A stretch of 64,000 nucleotides of DNA from Eubacteriaceae bacterium (GTDB lineage: Bacteria; Bacillota; Clostridia; Eubacteriales; Anaerofustaceae), in NCBI GenBank assembly GCA_009782515.1, contig WRIY01000006.1, forward strand, positions 1 to 64,000, written 5' to 3'. Position 1 is the stretch's first letter, and each line of letters starts with the position of its first letter. Made by a program: the position numbers and the translations under genes. Below are positions 17,935 to 26,806 of the stretch, piece by piece. A model generated the notes under the pieces. That model was not told the DNA's origin and did not search any database. It saw nothing but the letters and a program-made list of their open reading frames with translations.

Positions 17935-19614
17935 ATGCGAAACTACCTTAATAAGACAGCCAGGTATCTGATAACAGCAGCAGCAACGATTGTTTTAATA
18001 ATATGCATTATTTCTTTATCCCAAAATTGGAATAAGAAAACGCCTGTTTTAGACTATGAAGCTGCCTCAAAGAAAATTGACAGCTATTACTCAAAGCTAA
18101 AGGTAAACAAGCTGGCTTTGAAACAAGACCCGAATTTTGAGGGCGTTGACAGCGATGCCGAAAAGGTCGCTGTGCTGCCTGACATCTCTGAGTACCCGTT
18201 TATAGTAAATCCATCTACAGACAACTTTTTGACTATATACGCGTCTGCTGAAAAAAGGGAATGGCTTATTGAAATAGGCAACAGATTTAACACAAGCGGC
18301 GCAACTATAGACGGGATGCCTGTTTCTGTAAGCATCAGGTCAATGCCAAGCAGCTTGGGAGCTGATTTCATTTCATCTGGAAAATATACGCCGGATCTTT
18401 TTTCGCCATCAAGCGAAATATACGGCGAGATGATAATTGGCAAAGGGGTTAATGCTGCTTTAGTTGAAAAGCGAATTGCGGGCAATGTTACTGGAATTGC
18501 TATTAATCGAAAAAAGGGAGATGACATTGCAATGAAGTATGGGCCAATAGACTTCTCAGTAATTGCTAAAGCTGTATTAAACGGTGACTTGGCTTTGGGC
18601 TACACTTCACCCCTTTCAAATGAAGATGGCTTTAACTTTGTGCTGGCACTGCTGTTGGATGCTGACAGCGAAAATCCGACAAGCCCTGCCGCTGTTGAGC
18701 ATCTGCGAAAAGTCCAGGACAGAATCCTGCTAATAGCATATGACGAAGACCAGCTAAGAGCTTCACTGACAGGAGGCGCTCTGGATGCAATTGTTATAAA
18801 TAGCCAGGCATATGCCAATGCGCCTAATATTTACCAGGCATTCGAATTTATTGCGCTGGGCCAGCGCTCTGACAGCCCTGTTTATGAAATAGGAGAGCTA
18901 ACCGAGCTTAAAAAGGGCATAGCCGAATTATTCACCAGCTTTTGCAAAACGCCTGAAAGCCAGGCATCTGCAACAGATAAAGGGTTTAACAGCTATGAAG
19001 CATACGCCACACCGGCATCTGTAAGCGGATTGGCCATTAACCAGGCACAGGAGATATATAAAAATGAAAAAGGCGGCTCCAGCGTTATAACTGCTGTGTT
19101 TGTTGCTGATATTTCCGGCAGCATGGAAGGATCGCCTCTGCTCAACCTTAAAGCGAGCCTAAGCAGGGCGGCAGGGGTCATCAGCTCAGATGCAAATATC
19201 GGCCTTGTTACTTTTTCTGATGATGTTAACATTGCTTTGCCGATAGCGAAGTTTGATAACAACCAGAGATCATATTTCTCCAGTGCTGTGAAGTCAATGA
19301 GCGCAGCTGGCGGCACTGCCATGTTTGATGCAATTGTAGTTGCCCAAAAGATGCTGCTGGATGCCAAAATGCTAAATCCAAACACTAAGCTGATGCTTTT
19401 TGTGCTTTCAGATGGCGAGTCAAACCGGGGCCTTCGCTTTGGCGACATAGAGGCTGCTGCATATGGCACGAAAATACCAATATACACGATTGGATACAAC
19501 GCTAACATTGAAGTTCTCAGCAGCCTGTCAGCTATTAATGAAGCTGCTGCAATGAACGCTGACTCAGACAACGTAATATACAGGCTCGAGAGCTTGTTCA
19601 ACTCTCAAATGTAG
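17935..19614 (+). CDS. Membrane-anchored solute-binding/VWA-domain protein
   Basis: The ATG at 17935 follows an AGGAGATAGGAGAG region. Residues 10-28 form a transmembrane anchor. Residues about 70-330 resemble a periplasmic type II solute-binding fold. Residues about 380-555 are a von Willebrand A domain with a complete MIDAS: DISGS with Asp392, the Thr in GGTAMFD and the Asp in VLSDGES. Extracellular binding-protein/VWA fusions are known but poorly characterised; the VWA part usually mediates divalent-ion-dependent protein contact. The PotD-like lipoprotein follows within 84 nt on the same strand, suggesting a shared surface role. Confidence 0.85.
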   Translation: MRNYLNKTARYLITAAATIVLIICIISLSQNWNKKTPVLDYEAASKKIDSYYSKLKVNKLALKQDPNFEGVDSDAEKVAVLPDISEYPFIVNPSTDNFLTIYASAEKREWLIEIGNRFNTSGATIDGMPVSVSIRSMPSSLGADFISSGKYTPDLFSPSSEIYGEMIIGKGVNAALVEKRIAGNVTGIAINRKKGDDIAMKYGPIDFSVIAKAVLNGDLALGYTSPLSNEDGFNFVLALLLDADSENPTSPAAVEHLRKVQDRILLIAYDEDQLRASLTGGALDAIVINSQAYANAPNIYQAFEFIALGQRSDSPVYEIGELTELKKGIAELFTSFCKTPESQASATDKGFNSYEAYATPASVSGLAINQAQEIYKNEKGGSSVITAVFVADISGSMEGSPLLNLKASLSRAAGVISSDANIGLVTFSDDVNIALPIAKFDNNQRSYFSSAVKSMSAAGGTAMFDAIVVAQKMLLDAKMLNPNTKLMLFVLSDGESNRGLRFGDIEAAAYGTKIPIYTIGYNANIEVLSSLSAINEAAAMNADSDNVIYRLESLFNSQM

Positions 19615-19697
19615 CAATATATTTATGGGAATGCAGGATTCCAGAATGCAGAATTCTGCTGATGAAAACGCAATTGATGCCAATAATGGAGGCTTAT

Positions 19698-20777
19698 ATG
19701 AATCGCCATGACAAAAAAGCATCGCGCTTGGCAATGCTTATCGCAGCTTGCTGCATCATAGCAGGCTGCACGCCTAGTAGTGGCAATGGCAACACTGCTA
19801 ATAACAATAACAGCATAAACTACACTTCAACACTTCGGGTGTATAACGCAAGCGAGTATATAGACGAAAGCACTTTAAGGGATTTTGAAAAAGAATACTC
19901 GATCAAAGTTGAGTACGATGAATTTGAAAGCAACGAAGAAATGTATGAGACTATTAAGCATAACCCAAACGCATACGATATTTTAGTCCCGTCAGACTAT
20001 ATGGTAGACAGATTAATAAAAGAAGGCGCATTGGCAAAGCTTGACAAAAGCCTCATTCCAAATATCTCGCATGTAGCTGAAGATTATATCAGCCCGGCAT
20101 ATGATGCCGGCAATGACTATACTGTACCCTACATGGTAGGTACGCTGGGTGTTTTATACAATAAAAAGCAAGTAGCAGAACCTGTTGAGAGCTGGAGCGC
20201 AATCTTTGATCCGAATTACAGCTCAAAGGCGCTTATGCTGGACTCAGAGCGGGATGCAATCGGAGCTGCTCTAAAAATGCTTGGCTTCAGCATGAACTCA
20301 AGCGATGATTCTGAATTATCTCAAGCGAAAGCAAGCTTGCTTGCAAGCGCGCACATCTTTGCCTTCTTGGAAAGCGAAGATATCCGCGACAGGCTTGTAG
20401 CAGGGGAAAGCTATATTGGCGTAGTTTATTCAGGGGATGCAAAAACAGCAATAGACCGAAACCCGAACTTAGCTTATTCGATTCCGGCAGAAGGGGCAAA
20501 TAAGTGGGTTGACGGCTTTGTCATCTTAAACAGCTCGCCTCATATTGATGAGGCGCACAAGTTCATTAATTATATGTGCAAGCCCAGCATTGCAGTGAGG
20601 AATATGGCGCATATTGGCTATACATCGCCAATAAAGGGGGCATGGTCTGAGTTTGGCGGCAATAAAATCATGTTTCCTTCCACAGAAGAGCTTGAGCGCT
20701 GCGAAGCGTTTATATACGATGAGCATGCAACACAAAAGTACCACTCTATATGGCAGGACATACGAGGTTATTGGTAA
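19698..20777 (+). CDS. Polyamine-type ABC transporter substrate-binding lipoprotein (PotD-like)
   Basis: The ATG at 19698 follows TGGAGG and gives a lipoprotein signal (lipobox IAGC). The mature part fits the PotD/PotF spermidine-putrescine family: LRVYNASEYIDESTLRDFEK, YDILVPSDYMVDRLIKEG, VPYMVGTLGVLYNKK, an Asp-containing GDAKTAI segment and AHKFINYMCKP. It would catch polyamines or a related cation outside the membrane. The potA/B/C partners are not in this window. The adjacent gene is a binding-protein/VWA fusion rather than a permease, which makes the pair unusual. Some divergence from PotD in ligand specificity is possible. Confidence 0.85.
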   Translation: MNRHDKKASRLAMLIAACCIIAGCTPSSGNGNTANNNNSINYTSTLRVYNASEYIDESTLRDFEKEYSIKVEYDEFESNEEMYETIKHNPNAYDILVPSDYMVDRLIKEGALAKLDKSLIPNISHVAEDYISPAYDAGNDYTVPYMVGTLGVLYNKKQVAEPVESWSAIFDPNYSSKALMLDSERDAIGAALKMLGFSMNSSDDSELSQAKASLLASAHIFAFLESEDIRDRLVAGESYIGVVYSGDAKTAIDRNPNLAYSIPAEGANKWVDGFVILNSSPHIDEAHKFINYMCKPSIAVRNMAHIGYTSPIKGAWSEFGGNKIMFPSTEELERCEAFIYDEHATQKYHSIWQDIRGYW

Positions 20778-21571: not shown

Positions 21572-21656
21572 TGGTGCGAGAGACGGGACTTGAACCCGTA
21601 CGCCTTTCGACACACGCCCCTCAAACGTGCCTGTCTGCCTATTCCAGCACTCTCGC
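21572..21656 (-). tRNA. tRNA-Leu (anticodon GAG)
   Basis: An 85-nt tRNA with encoded CCA. The acceptor stem GCGAGAG pairs with CTCTCGC. The anticodon stem CACGT/GCGTG closes the loop TTGAGGG, giving GAG, which reads CUC and CUU. A long variable arm (TGTCGAAAGGCGT) marks it as class II leucine. The T arm ACGGG-TTCAAGT-CCCGT is complete. Confidence 0.95.
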
Positions 21657-21696: not shown

Positions 21697-22202
21697 CAAG
21701 AAAATGATTTGCGCTTATATTATGCGTCTCTGAAATGCGCACCGACTATGATTTCCAGCCTGCAGTTTGCCAGATGCCTGGCAAAACGGCGATAGCAGGA
21801 GGCATTACTGGAGCATTCCAGCGTAAAAGGCGAAATGCCGCAGTGTCAAATCTACAAGCAAGCCGAATATACAAATCATCTTATGCCATTTTCCGTCAAG
21901 GAATGCCAAAATATCACATAAATCTCCAGAAGAAATCTTTCACTTGCAGTTGTTGTCAACGATATCACTTGGTGCAATGCTATAATCATAGTAAATTAGC
22001 CATTTCCGACGGCTGCAGATTAGCTTTCACAAAGCAGTCTGCCGCTGAATCGCTATAAGAGGGATATCAGTGAAGCCGAAGGAACAATGATACGGGACGT
22101 GCAGTCAGCTTTCCAAAAAATAACCAAAAAAATTTGCTTAAAAGTAAAACCTAACTGAGATTTTATGCATCTGTGTGGTGTAAGGAAAAGGAGGATCAGC
22201 GT
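21697..22202. other. 506-nt gap between the tRNA promoter and the sigma gene
   Basis: No gene is supportable; the longest frame (from 21735) has no ribosome site. The stretch just before the next gene ends with AAAAGGAGGATCAGCGT, a strong ribosome site. A convincing promoter for the sigma gene is not visible as a standard hexamer pair, which would fit autoregulation from an ECF-type promoter. Confidence 0.4.
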
Positions 22203-23660
22203 ATGGCAATGACAGAGCAGCAAGTGCAGTTGGTTATCGCGGCACAGAGCGGCGATACAAAGAGCTTTGAAGAGCTTTTCGCCATCTACTATGAAAAAGT
22301 ATATGCTCTGGCAAGAATGATCACAAAGAATGCCGGCGACGCTGAGGACATTCTGCAGGAAACCTTTATCACCGCGTGGAGGAAACTGAACACACTTAAA
22401 ACACCGCTGTCCTTTTCGGTTTGGATTCAGATCATAGCAAAAAACCTATGCAATATGCAGCTACGCAAGAAGAACATGGCAATCATGCTCGATGCTGAAC
22501 AGGATATTGAAAACATTTATATGGAAGAATCCGAAGAATATCTTCCGGTTATATACACCGAAAGGGCGGATTTGAAAGAACGGCTGGGCAGGATCATAGA
22601 CGGCCTTTCCGAAGTGCAGCGACAATCGATCGTATTGTATTATTACAATGATCTTTCCGTTGAGGAAATATCCGGCGTGATGGAGTGCAGCGCCAATACT
22701 GTGAAAACGCGGCTGTTCCTTGCACGAAAGGCAATCCGTTCAGAGATTGAAGAACAGGAACGCAAGAGCGGCGAAAAGTTTTACGGTATTGCTGGGGTTC
22801 CTCTGATGAGTCTTGGAAAGCTGATCCGGGCACATATACAGTCCCTGTCAATCGGGCAGCGCTCTGCAATCGACTCGTTTAATGTGATCACAAACTCGAT
22901 TTTAAATACAAGCAGCATGAATGCAGCAGGCCGCGCAGCCGAACCGGTGAAACTGGATGAAAGAAAAATCGTTAATAAAATGTCTTTGAAAGCAAAAATA
23001 ATAGCGGGAATATCGGCTGTCGCAACCGTGGGCGCTGTAGCCGTGCTGGCCATTCTGGCGCGTGTGGGATTCGGAAAAAACGATCCGGCATCCAGTGGCG
23101 CTCACGCTCCTGATATAAGCCCTAGCGCTGCCGTGAGTGCATCGGAGACATCTGGCACGCCTCCTGAACCCGATTCTGCGGTGGAAGAGACACCATCCAT
23201 CGCGCCGCCAACAACACCCTCGCCAGTTCCCCCTAGTACCCCCACCCCGTCGTCAGAGCCAACTTGGTCTTACGCATATATCACCAAGTGGAGCGAGAGA
23301 ATGGACATCTATCAGAACTATGCTTTTGATTATGTGGACTGGCTAACGGGTACAGAGGCGGTGGAGCAGTATAAGCAAGATCATCCGAGAATTTCACAGA
23401 CAGAAGCGGAGGAAGCCGTGGAAGAATACGGCTATATACGAAACGCCAATCAGCAACTCAAGTGGCTCTATCCAACAGACAGCACAGAGTATTATATGCC
23501 CGACGCACGCATCTCCGCAACGCCCGTCAGGGTTGGCTATCAAACCTTCAAGGACAGGATGATACCTGCGATAGAGAATGGTGAAACCTGGTTGGCCTTT
23601 GTGAAAGTTACTGTTTCGGGAGAAACCATTGTGAAAATTGAATGGGTCTATCATCCTTGA
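22203..23660 (+). CDS. ECF sigma factor fused to a membrane helix and extracytoplasmic domain
   Basis: AGGAGG with 8 nt spacing selects the ATG at 22203 (485 aa). Residues 10-90 are sigma region 2 (SGDTKSFEELFAIYYEKVYA, DAEDILQETFITAW) and 125-182 region 4 (LSEVQRQSIVLYYYNDLSVE, then the HTH). Then come a basic linker, a transmembrane helix at about 265-288, a Pro/Ser/Thr-rich stalk (300-354) and a C-terminal domain of about 130 residues with many Tyr/Trp and Glu. ECF factors normally stop after region 4 and pair with a separate anti-sigma protein; here sensing and tethering parts are in cis. Release by proteolysis is an inference. It heads a cluster of surface genes on the same strand. Confidence 0.88.
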   Translation: MAMTEQQVQLVIAAQSGDTKSFEELFAIYYEKVYALARMITKNAGDAEDILQETFITAWRKLNTLKTPLSFSVWIQIIAKNLCNMQLRKKNMAIMLDAEQDIENIYMEESEEYLPVIYTERADLKERLGRIIDGLSEVQRQSIVLYYYNDLSVEEISGVMECSANTVKTRLFLARKAIRSEIEEQERKSGEKFYGIAGVPLMSLGKLIRAHIQSLSIGQRSAIDSFNVITNSILNTSSMNAAGRAAEPVKLDERKIVNKMSLKAKIIAGISAVATVGAVAVLAILARVGFGKNDPASSGAHAPDISPSAAVSASETSGTPPEPDSAVEETPSIAPPTTPSPVPPSTPTPSSEPTWSYAYITKWSERMDIYQNYAFDYVDWLTGTEAVEQYKQDHPRISQTEAEEAVEEYGYIRNANQQLKWLYPTDSTEYYMPDARISATPVRVGYQTFKDRMIPAIENGETWLAFVKVTVSGETIVKIEWVYHP

Positions 23661-23689
23661 TAGCAGGTACGATGAAGGAGGACTAGCAC

Positions 23690-25111
23690 ATGAAAACAAA
23701 AGCAAGAGCTAATAAACTCATATCAGCCCTGCTGGTAATTGTCATGCTCGGCCTGTTCGCAGCGTTTCCGCTGACAGCGTTGGCTGATCCGCCAGCACCC
23801 ACAATAAGCACTCAGCCCCAAAACAAGAGTGTCACAGCGGGCCAAACTGCAGAGTTTAAGGTAGTCGCTGCCGGCACTGCGCCGCTGGCATATCAATGGG
23901 AATTCTACCACAGGGACGGAGTGTGGCTTGAAGCAGACATTGCAGGATATTCCGGCAAGAATACACCTACTCTGAAAGTGATGACAACAGATACATCATT
24001 AAATGGCAGGCGTTTGCGCTGCGTGGTGTCCAACGCAGGCGGTACGGTAACTTCCAACGAAGCCATTATTACAGTCACGGCGGCAATGCCACCGGCTGCG
24101 CCGAGCAAGCTAACAGCAACCGCTGGCGGCACAGGTGGCATAACCCTGAATTGGCAAGATAATTCCAATAATGAAACAGGCTTTGTTATTGAAAAAAGAG
24201 AAGGCGGCGGCGGTTGGTACCAAATGGATTCTGTAGGAGCAAATGTCACGACATATAGGGATGCGAACATGCAAGCGGGCAAAACCTACATTTACAGAGT
24301 GAATGCTTCTTCAGCAAACGGCTATTCGCCCTATTCCAACGAAGCCTCTATTACGATAACGGCGGCAATGATGCCACCGGCTGCGCCGAGCAGTCTAACG
24401 GCAACCGCTGGCGGCACGGGTGGCATAACCCTGAATTGGCAAGATAATTCCAATAATGAAACAGGCTTTGTCATTGAGAAAAGAGAGGGCAGCGGCGGTT
24501 GGTACCAAACGGATTCTGTAGGAGCAAATGTCACGACCTATAGGGATGCGAACATGCAAGCGGGCAAAACCTACACTTACAGAGTGAATGCTTCTTCAGC
24601 TAACGGCTATTCGCCCTATTCCAACGAAGCCTCTGTTAGTATACCTGCGGCTGCCTACGAGGTCACTGTCAATCCCGGTACAGGCAGCGGGAGCTATGTG
24701 GCGGGGCAAACCGTCACCATCACAGCGAACGCAGCCCCTGCGGGGAAGGTTTTTGACAAGTGGACGACTTCAAGCGGCGTGGCGTTTGCAAATGCATCAG
24801 GTGCAAGCACAACGTTCACCATGCCGTCCTCGAATGTCACCGTCACTGCAACATATAGGGATCTACCGGGCGCAACAACCGCGACAACAACCACACCGGC
24901 GGTAATTACACCGCCTGCAGCCAACACAGCAATGCCGGAAAGCTCATCCCCCACGCTGGGCGAAGACGCACCTGTTAACGAAGCCATCACTGGCAGTGTT
25001 GGCGACGAGAACGAAGGCGGATTCAACTGGCTGTGGATTCTGTTTATCGGGCTGGCTGGAGTAGCCGTCGGCGGTGTTGCCACTGTACTTAATCTACGGC
25101 AAAAAACATAG
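23690..25111 (+). CDS. Surface protein with Ig-like, two FN3 and InlB-type repeat domains
   Basis: GGAGGACTAGCAC before the ATG sets the start. The product (473 aa) has a signal peptide (residues 1-31), an Ig-like domain (about 33-130), two nearly identical FN3 domains (about 135-225 and 230-320), a bacterial InlB/Flg_new-type repeat (YEVTVNPGTGSGSYVAGQTV onward, 323-395), a Thr-rich stalk, and a C-terminal transmembrane helix (WLWILFIGLAGVAVGGVA) with a short basic tail. There is no LPxTG sorting signal, so anchoring is by the helix. It starts 29 nt after the membrane-tethered sigma gene and is its likely partner or target. The ligand is unknown. Confidence 0.85.
   Translation: MKTKARANKLISALLVIVMLGLFAAFPLTALADPPAPTISTQPQNKSVTAGQTAEFKVVAAGTAPLAYQWEFYHRDGVWLEADIAGYSGKNTPTLKVMTTDTSLNGRRLRCVVSNAGGTVTSNEAIITVTAAMPPAAPSKLTATAGGTGGITLNWQDNSNNETGFVIEKREGGGGWYQMDSVGANVTTYRDANMQAGKTYIYRVNASSANGYSPYSNEASITITAAMMPPAAPSSLTATAGGTGGITLNWQDNSNNETGFVIEKREGSGGWYQTDSVGANVTTYRDANMQAGKTYTYRVNASSANGYSPYSNEASVSIPAAAYEVTVNPGTGSGSYVAGQTVTITANAAPAGKVFDKWTTSSGVAFANASGASTTFTMPSSNVTVTATYRDLPGATTATTTTPAVITPPAANTAMPESSSPTLGEDAPVNEAITGSVGDENEGGFNWLWILFIGLAGVAVGGVATVLNLRQKT
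24088..24645 (+). repeat. Tandem duplication of an FN3 unit, period 285 nt
   Basis: The first unit starts at 24088 and the second at 24373, exactly 95 codons apart. By eye they differ at about fifteen positions over about 265 nt, mostly synonymous, so the duplication is recent or homogenised. Confidence 0.9.
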
Positions 25112-25127
25112 GCTGAGCATTCGTCCT

Positions 25128-25244
25128 GTGGCGTTCTGCGAAAAATGCGGAACACAGGTACAGGATGAAGCACAATTCTGCCCCGGTTGCGGAAGCAAAT
25201 CGGCGAGGTTCCCTCTCAGCAACCACCTAAAAATAAGAAGATGA
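25128..25244 (+). CDS. Zinc-ribbon mini-ORF (38 aa) or zinc-ribbon gene relic
   Basis: A GTG at 25128 opens VAFCEKCGTQVQDEAQFCPG with CxxC-x12-CxxC zinc-ribbon spacing, ending at 25244. Such ribbons usually begin longer membrane proteins. The frame after CPGCG appears to leave a Pro/Gln-rich linker in another frame (GEVPSQQPPKNKK, read from 25205), as if one base was lost, so this may be the start of a larger gene broken by a frameshift. There is no good ribosome site. It lies 16 nt after the FN3 gene. Confidence 0.45.
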   Translation: MAFCEKCGTQVQDEAQFCPGCGSKSARFPLSNHLKIRR

Positions 25245-25255
25245 GGAGTAGAAAA

Positions 25256-26137
25256 ATGAAAAAGGCTTTAACATTTGTATTGGCGCTCCTGTTAGCCCTT
25301 ACCCAGCTGGCTGCTTGCAGCAGCAGCTCCCCGCCCGCCACGAACAGTGGCAATGAAGATGAAATTGTGGAAATCGACGCTGATGCATGGTGGGTTGATT
25401 ATTATTGGAAGCTTGAGGCAAAAATTGCGCAGAACGAAGAGTTTGGCTCGCTTGTCAACCAGCCAGGCATGTACGCGGATTATGTCTTCGATATCACAAT
25501 GACAGGGGGCGGCGACCCTATAAATGATCCGAACATGACTGTTGAAGGAATTTACTATCTACAGATAGAATCCACTATAAAGATCAACACCGACGAAGCA
25601 GCCGACCGGCTGCTGAGTGAATTATTAGGAGAAACACTCAGCGATATGGGGCTCGGAATAAGCGTGGATTTGGCTGGTGTATACGAAGGCGGCATTCCTT
25701 ATTATCTCGATGGCAACGGTATGCCTGTTAAGCCCGAATACGATCAAAATTATGAACCTATTTGGCCGGAAGGCAAAACGGATGCATCCCTCGGCGCCAA
25801 TTACGTCAATAAAACCTCGAAAGACTGGCAGTCTCCTATAAAAAACAAAAATGGCACGCCCATGCAGCCGGCGGAAGGCAGCTATTTGATGTTTGATGCG
25901 TTTACAATGAAATACACAGGCTCGTCTTCTCATGAGCTCATTGGTTCTTTCAGCGAAGATTTGGCGTACGATATTTACCTCTACATAGTGATTGAACCGG
26001 CACAGCCCGGCATTATCGACTTGGGTGATTTCAACGCGAAAGTGTATCTAAATCTTGTGACTTCTGAGAATCACGAAATATGGCTGGAAGGCGAAGGAAC
26101 ACTCACCCTTGTAGAGGAATGGAACGAACAAAAATAA
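25256..26137 (+). CDS. Putative lipoprotein of the sigma/FN3 cluster, 293 aa
   Basis: ATG 25256 after GAGGAGTAGAAAA gives a lipoprotein signal MKKALTFVLALLLALTQLAAC (Cys at 21). The mature part has DADAWWVDYYWKLEAKIAQN, a beta-rich middle with EGIYYLQIESTIKIN, and a C-terminal half with YDIYLYIVIEPAQPGIIDLG and NLVTSENHEIWLEGEGTLTL. It is predicted to be extracytoplasmic. No family is recognised. It is one of two lipoproteins downstream of the tethered sigma factor. Confidence 0.75.
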   Translation: MKKALTFVLALLLALTQLAACSSSSPPATNSGNEDEIVEIDADAWWVDYYWKLEAKIAQNEEFGSLVNQPGMYADYVFDITMTGGGDPINDPNMTVEGIYYLQIESTIKINTDEAADRLLSELLGETLSDMGLGISVDLAGVYEGGIPYYLDGNGMPVKPEYDQNYEPIWPEGKTDASLGANYVNKTSKDWQSPIKNKNGTPMQPAEGSYLMFDAFTMKYTGSSSHELIGSFSEDLAYDIYLYIVIEPAQPGIIDLGDFNAKVYLNLVTSENHEIWLEGEGTLTLVEEWNEQK

Positions 26138-26173
26138 CCAAGGCCGGGCTTTAAAAATAGGAGGGCTATGGAA

Positions 26174-26806
26174 ATGAAAAAATCTATTTCGGTTGGGTTG
26201 GCAATGATTATAGCATTGTCCCTGCTATCGGCTTGTGGCAGCGGGAGCAATAGCGCAAACGACAAACCAAGCGGGGGAAACAGCAGCAGCACCCCGCCCG
26301 CTTCAGATAGCGGGAACACAAACAGCACGACTGATGCAGGCGCTTCACCAGAACAGGGCGATGTCTTTATCAAAGCGTCTCAGCTTATTCCTCTTGAAGA
26401 CGCAAAGCGCATAGTTCATGAAAGCTTTGAAGTCGGCATAGATAGCAAAACCAAACAAGCACAACTGGATTTGCCCTCCAGATCACGTCCGGGCTTTACT
26501 ACCACATATAGCGGTGATGCTTTTCTTATTCTGGTAGTCACTGTCAACTACGACGAATCTTACATCCAAGGCATAAAAAGAGACATTGATGCCAGCCTTG
26601 TTGCCTCGGAACAAGTGGACGGTGTAGGAGATTGGGCAGCGTTTGTCGAGAGTGTGGGAAAGAGCCTCTATGTCGGATACAAAGATGCTTTCTTGAACAT
26701 CACCTTAACCGGCCTAAAATCAGTGTCGATCGCGGAAGAAGATATGGATGGGATATTCAAGGATCTGGGCAGGCTTGCCTGTGAGAATTACGGCGCGCTC
26801 AAGTGA
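26174..26806 (+). CDS. Putative lipoprotein of the sigma/FN3 cluster, 210 aa
   Basis: ATG 26174 is favoured over 26168 because AGGAGGG is too near the first one. The signal peptide ends in the lipobox LSAC, followed by a Ser/Asn/Gly-rich linker (to about residue 60), then a compact domain with LIPLEDAKRIVHESFEVGID and FLILVVTVNYDESYIQGIKR. It appears to be an ion- or ligand-sensing lipoprotein, but no family is recognised. It is the last gene of the cluster on this strand. Confidence 0.75.
   Translation: MKKSISVGLAMIIALSLLSACGSGSNSANDKPSGGNSSSTPPASDSGNTNSTTDAGASPEQGDVFIKASQLIPLEDAKRIVHESFEVGIDSKTKQAQLDLPSRSRPGFTTTYSGDAFLILVVTVNYDESYIQGIKRDIDASLVASEQVDGVGDWAAFVESVGKSLYVGYKDAFLNITLTGLKSVSIAEEDMDGIFKDLGRLACENYGALK

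Follow-up and report, generated by a model that had tools for sequence, protein, structure and literature searches.

Locus and Architecture of the Proposed Sigma-Receptor

The window analysed here (64,000 nucleotides of a contig from a Eubacteriaceae bacterium) carries on its plus strand, like all features of the cluster given below, a gene that joins an extracytoplasmic function (ECF) sigma factor, a transmembrane (TM) helix and an outer domain in one chain, followed by genes for a surface protein and two lipoproteins. This putative sigma-receptor gene (22203–23660; ATG start at 22203, stop at 23660) is a single-frame open reading frame (ORF) of 485 residues, and ORF analysis, Pfam and hydropathy all agree with the architecture originally predicted, that is, sigma regions 2 and 4, a TM helix, a stalk and a Tyr/Trp-rich outer domain. 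Regions 2 (residues 25–91, 22275–22475; PF04542, Sigma70_r2, E 1.3e-13) and 4 (residues 126–178, 22578–22736; PF08281, Sigma70_r4_2, E 2.2e-14) both exceed the curated Pfam cut-offs, while no Pfam match to a region 3 was obtained between them, and this combination assigns the protein to the ECF (group 4) sigma factors by Pfam. ECF sigma factors are also the best PDB matches of the sigma part, including in a comparison of its AlphaFold2 model.

Region 4 is followed by a cytoplasmic linker (residues 184–244, 22752–22934) with the motif ERKSGEKFYGIAG-PL, which is conserved across alignments of relatives, is predicted to form two helices and represents a candidate built-in inhibitor of the sigma part; no Cys occurs in the sequence between the sigma part and the TM helix (residues 179–265). 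The full-length AlphaFold2 model is confident in the sigma part and the linker (predicted local distance difference test, pLDDT, of about 75–90 for residues 201–240) and poor in the ectodomain. In this model the sigma part is closer to anti-sigma-bound than to RNA-polymerase-bound sigma structures, a comparison that lacks a sigma-only control and from which no conclusion on masking is drawn. The TM helix (residues 266–284, 22998–23054) is the single hydrophobic helix of the chain, and the net charges of +3 on its N-terminal and 0 on its C-terminal side predict, per the charge rule, that the N-terminus lies inside. It leads into a Pro/Ser/Thr-rich stalk (about residues 295–352, 23085–23258) of very low model confidence, as disorder would give, and finally into the Tyr/Trp-rich ectodomain of 131 residues (residues 355–485, 23265–23657), for which neither a Pfam match nor a PDB sequence match of note nor a significant fold match was found and which has its kin in the relatives L031 and L028 (type A, see below).

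The Downstream Surface-Protein Cluster

An Ig/FN3 protein, a zinc ribbon and two lipoproteins had been predicted as the next genes. The surface protein and the lipoproteins stand, while the ribbon looks like a frameshifted tail. The surface protein (23690–25111) comprises a signal peptide, an Ig domain (match below the Pfam cut-off), two FN3 domains, an InlB-type repeat and a C-terminal TM helix, and is followed by two lipoproteins with the lipoboxes LAAC (25256–26137) and LSAC (26168–26806), both without Pfam match. The ribbon (25128–25244) is out of frame relative to the surface protein. Homologous surface proteins in L028 (8500–10473) and L108 end with the same ribbon in frame, on the cytoplasmic side directly past the TM helix, so that a separate zinc-ribbon gene was rejected and the ribbon is most simply read as the tail of the preceding protein, frameshifted through decay or assembly error. 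Since the intergenic gaps behind the sigma gene are short (29, 144 and 30 nucleotides) and no convincing plus-strand terminator was found ahead of 27292, the sigma gene, the surface protein and the two lipoproteins presumably form one operon. Both FN3 domains of the surface protein (24096–24660) are near-identical, which indicates a recent internal duplication. Shortly ahead of the cluster lies a minus-strand tRNA-Leu (gag) at 21572–21656, and further upstream (17935–20777) an apparently VWA-type protein, lipid-anchored or secreted, and a putative solute-binding lipoprotein are encoded.

Relatives of the Fused Gene

Relatives were sought in a kin set of 296 genomes and in a wider scan with one genome per species. 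Within the kin set, only the window genome and G001 contain members of the close clade, with the next matches at 168 as compared to more than 440 bits. In all, nine relatives with the same fusion, 46–74 % identical to the window protein over sigma part and linker, were found in gut metagenome-assembled genomes (MAGs) of Clostridiales, Eubacteriaceae, Oscillospiraceae, Coriobacteriia and Coriobacteriales, with a second copy (L071) in G151. The isolate codes of most of these MAGs resemble what we take to be termite-gut codes, and RUG230 presumably denotes a rumen MAG. Identities over sigma part and linker amount to 62–77 % among eight relatives and the window protein, and to 46–51 % with the rumen relative L035, which has diverged furthest among the nine. 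Apart from L076, every fused relative has a TM helix following region 4, and in most of them the inner side of this helix bears more positive charge. Co-occurrence of the neighbours, which the original prediction had proposed as a check, was likewise borne out by a co-directional surface-protein gene, adjacent or one gene on, beside 7/8 evaluable relatives (L021, L028, L031, L032, L033, L034 and L071; L085 was not counted, as a contig end cuts its locus). Judged from these relatives, the sigma–TM–ectodomain fusion is real and no accidental joining with an unrelated gene. Both sigma regions are retained, together with a matching promoter (see the following section), and the refutations set out in the original prediction fail. 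Viral contigs gave a single weak match (33 %) and none of the close clade.

More distant fused sigma genes from the wider searches encode about 360–1175 residues. The longest (L157:64–3591; 1175 residues, with the start beyond the contig end) combines a lipase-like stretch (GHSLGG) in its outer part with a second TM helix close to the C-terminus, while two distant sigma–TM proteins (L023:8044–9123, 359 residues, and L025:9712–11028, 438 residues) are each encoded divergently from a surface protein of ~2400 residues. One genome, G243, contributes at least four such distant fused genes (L080, L081, L082 and L087), each encoding about 400 residues. In the rumen Clostridiales MAG, a 169-residue sigma region 4 fragment (L035:718–1227), perhaps a broken duplicate, is located directly 5' of the full fused gene.

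Promoter and Predicted Regulon

Alignment of the DNA upstream of the sigma genes on their start codons revealed a putative ECF-type promoter, TWAARCC-N15-GCATCTRT, of invariant spacing upstream of 8/10 sigma genes (window, L021, L028, L031, L033, L034, L071 and L085), which belong to several orders and two phyla; in L032, it sits ahead of the surface gene that precedes the sigma gene. In the window, the element (AAACC-N16-CATCTGT, 22147–22174) is an exact match to the pattern conserved in the relatives. Genome-wide searches with the exact pattern AAACCN14YGCATCTRT returned 17 sites in eight close-clade genomes and none for the reversed pattern used as control. In eight genomes of the same family that lack a close sigma gene, there was a single site, for which no ORF could be identified downstream.

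In the genomes that hold the sigma gene, all ten exact sites not belonging to a sigma gene lie 63–273 nucleotides upstream of a gene with a Shine-Dalgarno sequence and a signal peptide, as compared to 2/32 one-mismatch sites, which served as second control (Fisher p 4.5e-8). Domains of the SLH, Ig, InlB, SpaA or beta-helix type exceed the Pfam cut-off in seven of these ten target genes. One of the ten (L108 in G001, a homologue of the window surface protein at 203 bits) stands behind its promoter on a contig other than that of the G001 sigma gene. One-mismatch sites, which in the window stretch alone occur at chance level, were rejected as targets, being mostly noise, and kept as control; their two positives (L119 and L120, G153:C210) form a divergent pair of secreted-protein genes and are probably further targets. 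This surface-protein regulon, predicted in several genomes, is what the analysis adds most strongly and supports a putative self-activating sigma-receptor that would control surface proteins.

Probable Exchange of Ectodomains

The relatives carry at least four kinds of ectodomain. Type A is shared by the window protein, L028 and L031, the latter two being 58–67 % identical to the window, and has weak kin in a domain of the lipoprotein L146 (E 1.9e-6). Type B occurs in L021, L032, L033 and L034, with L153 added by eye, and L071 and L035 possess ectodomains other than A or B. On the sigma tree, a single origin was rejected for type A (approximately unbiased test, p-AU 0.024) as well as for type B (p-AU 0.007), with the ectodomain groups named from the same proteins as tested; L031, of type A, groups with L021, of type B, at a support of 81/85, while the tree is otherwise poorly resolved. 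Neither type forms one clade on the sigma tree, and the simplest reading is that ectodomains were exchanged between sigma parts or that recombination took place inside the gene. Beside its sigma gene, G001 encodes a secreted protein (L021:11638–12264), one domain of which matches the ectodomain of the sigma protein at 87 % identity. The intergenic stretches flanking this secreted copy are near-repeats as well, which probably reflects a recent tandem duplication.

Proposed Mechanism and Alternatives

Taken together, we consider it likely that the protein is a membrane-tethered ECF sigma factor acting as its own receptor, which is freed on a signal and reads AAACC-N16-CATCT promoters. The sigma part would reside in the cytoplasm, tethered by its single TM helix, and the helical linker after region 4 would probably mask it, while the stalked ectodomain would meet a ligand or surface partner outside. 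Upon this signal, the chain may be cleaved, first on the outer side and next inside the membrane through an M50-type protease; alternatively, it may be rearranged. Either event would make the sigma part available to RNA polymerase. The freed sigma factor would then read its own promoter first, so that its gene would be raised along with those for the Ig/FN3 protein and both lipoproteins; in the relatives, it would presumably also read the promoters of unlinked surface-protein genes. Sequence backs the one-chain architecture, the topology signal, the clade-wide promoter and the surface-protein genes predicted behind it; we infer promoter reading by the sigma factor, transcription as an operon, masking by the linker, ligand sensing and proteolytic release. 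The original suggestion of a one-protein sensor and transcription factor that controls its surface partners is thus partly supported by the recurring fusion, the neighbours and the shared promoter, with signal binding and a held-inactive state still conjectural. That one chain replaces the sigma/anti-sigma pair is plausible, since no anti-sigma gene adjoins the sigma gene.

Several observations weigh against this proposal. It was reached by sequence analysis, and the pairing of promoter and sigma factor is one of co-occurrence only. An M50 protease is present in the window genome and also in 14/14 control genomes, and is thus non-discriminating. The AlphaFold2 model of the ectodomain is weak (pLDDT 65.5) and without significant PDB match, so that no ligand-binding fold can be recognised. 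Half of the ten target genes stem from one genome (G152) and some of them are mutually similar, which leaves fewer than ten independent cases, and the window genome contains the exact promoter only once, so that the regulon there may consist of its own cluster alone. Finally, both the promoter and a neighbouring surface-protein gene are missing from L035.

Among the alternatives, the sigma factor might be active while tethered, with a conformational or clustering signal causing the membrane-bound chain to recruit RNA polymerase in the manner of ToxR/CadC-type regulators. The lack of a dedicated protease gene beside the sigma gene, the TM helix kept by the relatives and the absence of any sign of cleavage in the analysis would all fit; we know, however, of no precedent for an RNA polymerase holoenzyme tethered to the membrane through sigma. 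In addition, the characterised sigma/anti-sigma chain IutY requires cleavage by RseP (PMC5411451), and we regard activity without proteolysis as unlikely, if not far-fetched.

The ectodomain could also have no sensing role and act as a passenger or as an anchor, as in surface display, with sigma activity governed by expression level or turnover. Such a role would accord with ectodomains that vary and seem to be exchanged, and with the separate secreted copy in L021, which points to a domain with an independent life. The TM–stalk–ectodomain layout, however, is kept despite different ectodomains, which fits a receptor better, and the same layout is found in ECF52, for which sensing is thought to occur, and in IutY, for which it is demonstrated; a mere passenger therefore appears rather improbable.

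The promoter sites might instead be read by another sigma factor dedicated to surface genes, with the fused sigma gene as merely one of its targets, a scenario left room by a pairing based on co-occurrence and by 11 sigma region 2 matches in G000. Against it, the sites occur in 8/8 close-clade genomes from two phyla and are near chance in the eight same-family genomes without the clade, while their lack in the diverged L035 (46 % identical) is what a changed specificity predicts, and we consider this scenario quite improbable. A chance fusion or assembly artefact joining the sigma gene to an unrelated downstream gene, conceivable in a MAG assembly with a frameshift-like defect in the neighbouring gene, is refuted by the same uninterrupted fusion in many independent assemblies and has a practically negligible probability.

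Beyond the self-receptor proposed for the window protein, we put forward more tentatively, and with somewhat more doubt than conviction, that the clade represents an undescribed one-chain sigma-receptor family of gut Clostridia and Coriobacteriia. Its conserved core of sigma part, linker and TM helix would have moved between phyla together with the promoter, would swap ectodomains and would switch the surface-protein set of each genome, sometimes with a secreted ectodomain copy as partner or feedback.

Significance

ECF signalling usually involves two proteins, a sigma factor and an anti-sigma factor. Here, a whole clade seems to signal by one protein with an exchangeable outer part, and one molecule probably both senses the surroundings and activates components of the surface coat. 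The likely promoter is simple enough for targets to be predicted genome by genome, which would open surface-protein control in uncultured gut bacteria to direct tests in a laboratory host. The chain could also be plugged as a receptor into synthetic circuits built on sigma factors.

Comparison with Known Systems

The same kind of layout is known from ECF52 (SCO4117 of Streptomyces coelicolor), in which an ECF sigma factor, a TM region, a proline-rich extension and an outer domain form one chain, with positive autoregulation and proteolytic release suggested and an occurrence reported as exclusive to Actinobacteria (PMC5826349). The window protein shares the TM region followed by a proline-rich extension. 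In contrast, ECF52 possesses a zinc-finger anti-sigma domain and an outer carbohydrate-binding module, whereas the window protein has no zinc-finger Pfam match and its ectodomain no Pfam match at all; moreover, the hosts of the window clade are mainly Clostridia and its predicted regulon consists of surface proteins. Membership in ECF52 was rejected on account of the lacking zinc finger and carbohydrate module. ECF48 and ECF53, known by prediction, are likewise sigma–TM fusions for which release by proteolysis is expected (PMC8999054); they differ from the window protein in being Actinobacterial, in their zinc-finger anti-sigma part and in having one or two TM helices.

In Pseudomonas putida, IutY (ECF243) also combines a sigma factor and a membrane-bound regulatory part in one polypeptide (PMC5411451, PMC8999054), as does the window protein; Prc and RseP release the sigma part from this sigma/anti-sigma chain (PMC5411451). 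Its cell-surface-signalling anti-sigma domain, however, answers an outer-membrane receptor, whereas the window protein has no FecR match and no such receptor and is neighboured by a surface protein and lipoproteins. SigI/RsgI of Clostridium thermocellum offers a parallel in a different respect: the membrane protein RsgI has varied ectodomains, controls secreted or surface proteins and is cut by RseP (PMC12203970, PMC6056542), which resembles the differing ectodomains and the control of surface proteins predicted for the window clade. Unlike the window protein, in which sensor and sigma factor form one ORF of the ECF type, RsgI is a separate anti-sigma sensor. The literature searched, which did not include the 2021 ECF reclassification, holds no description of the window sigma family, and an existing group number is possible. 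On the features compared, the family probably works like ECF52 and IutY while belonging to neither.

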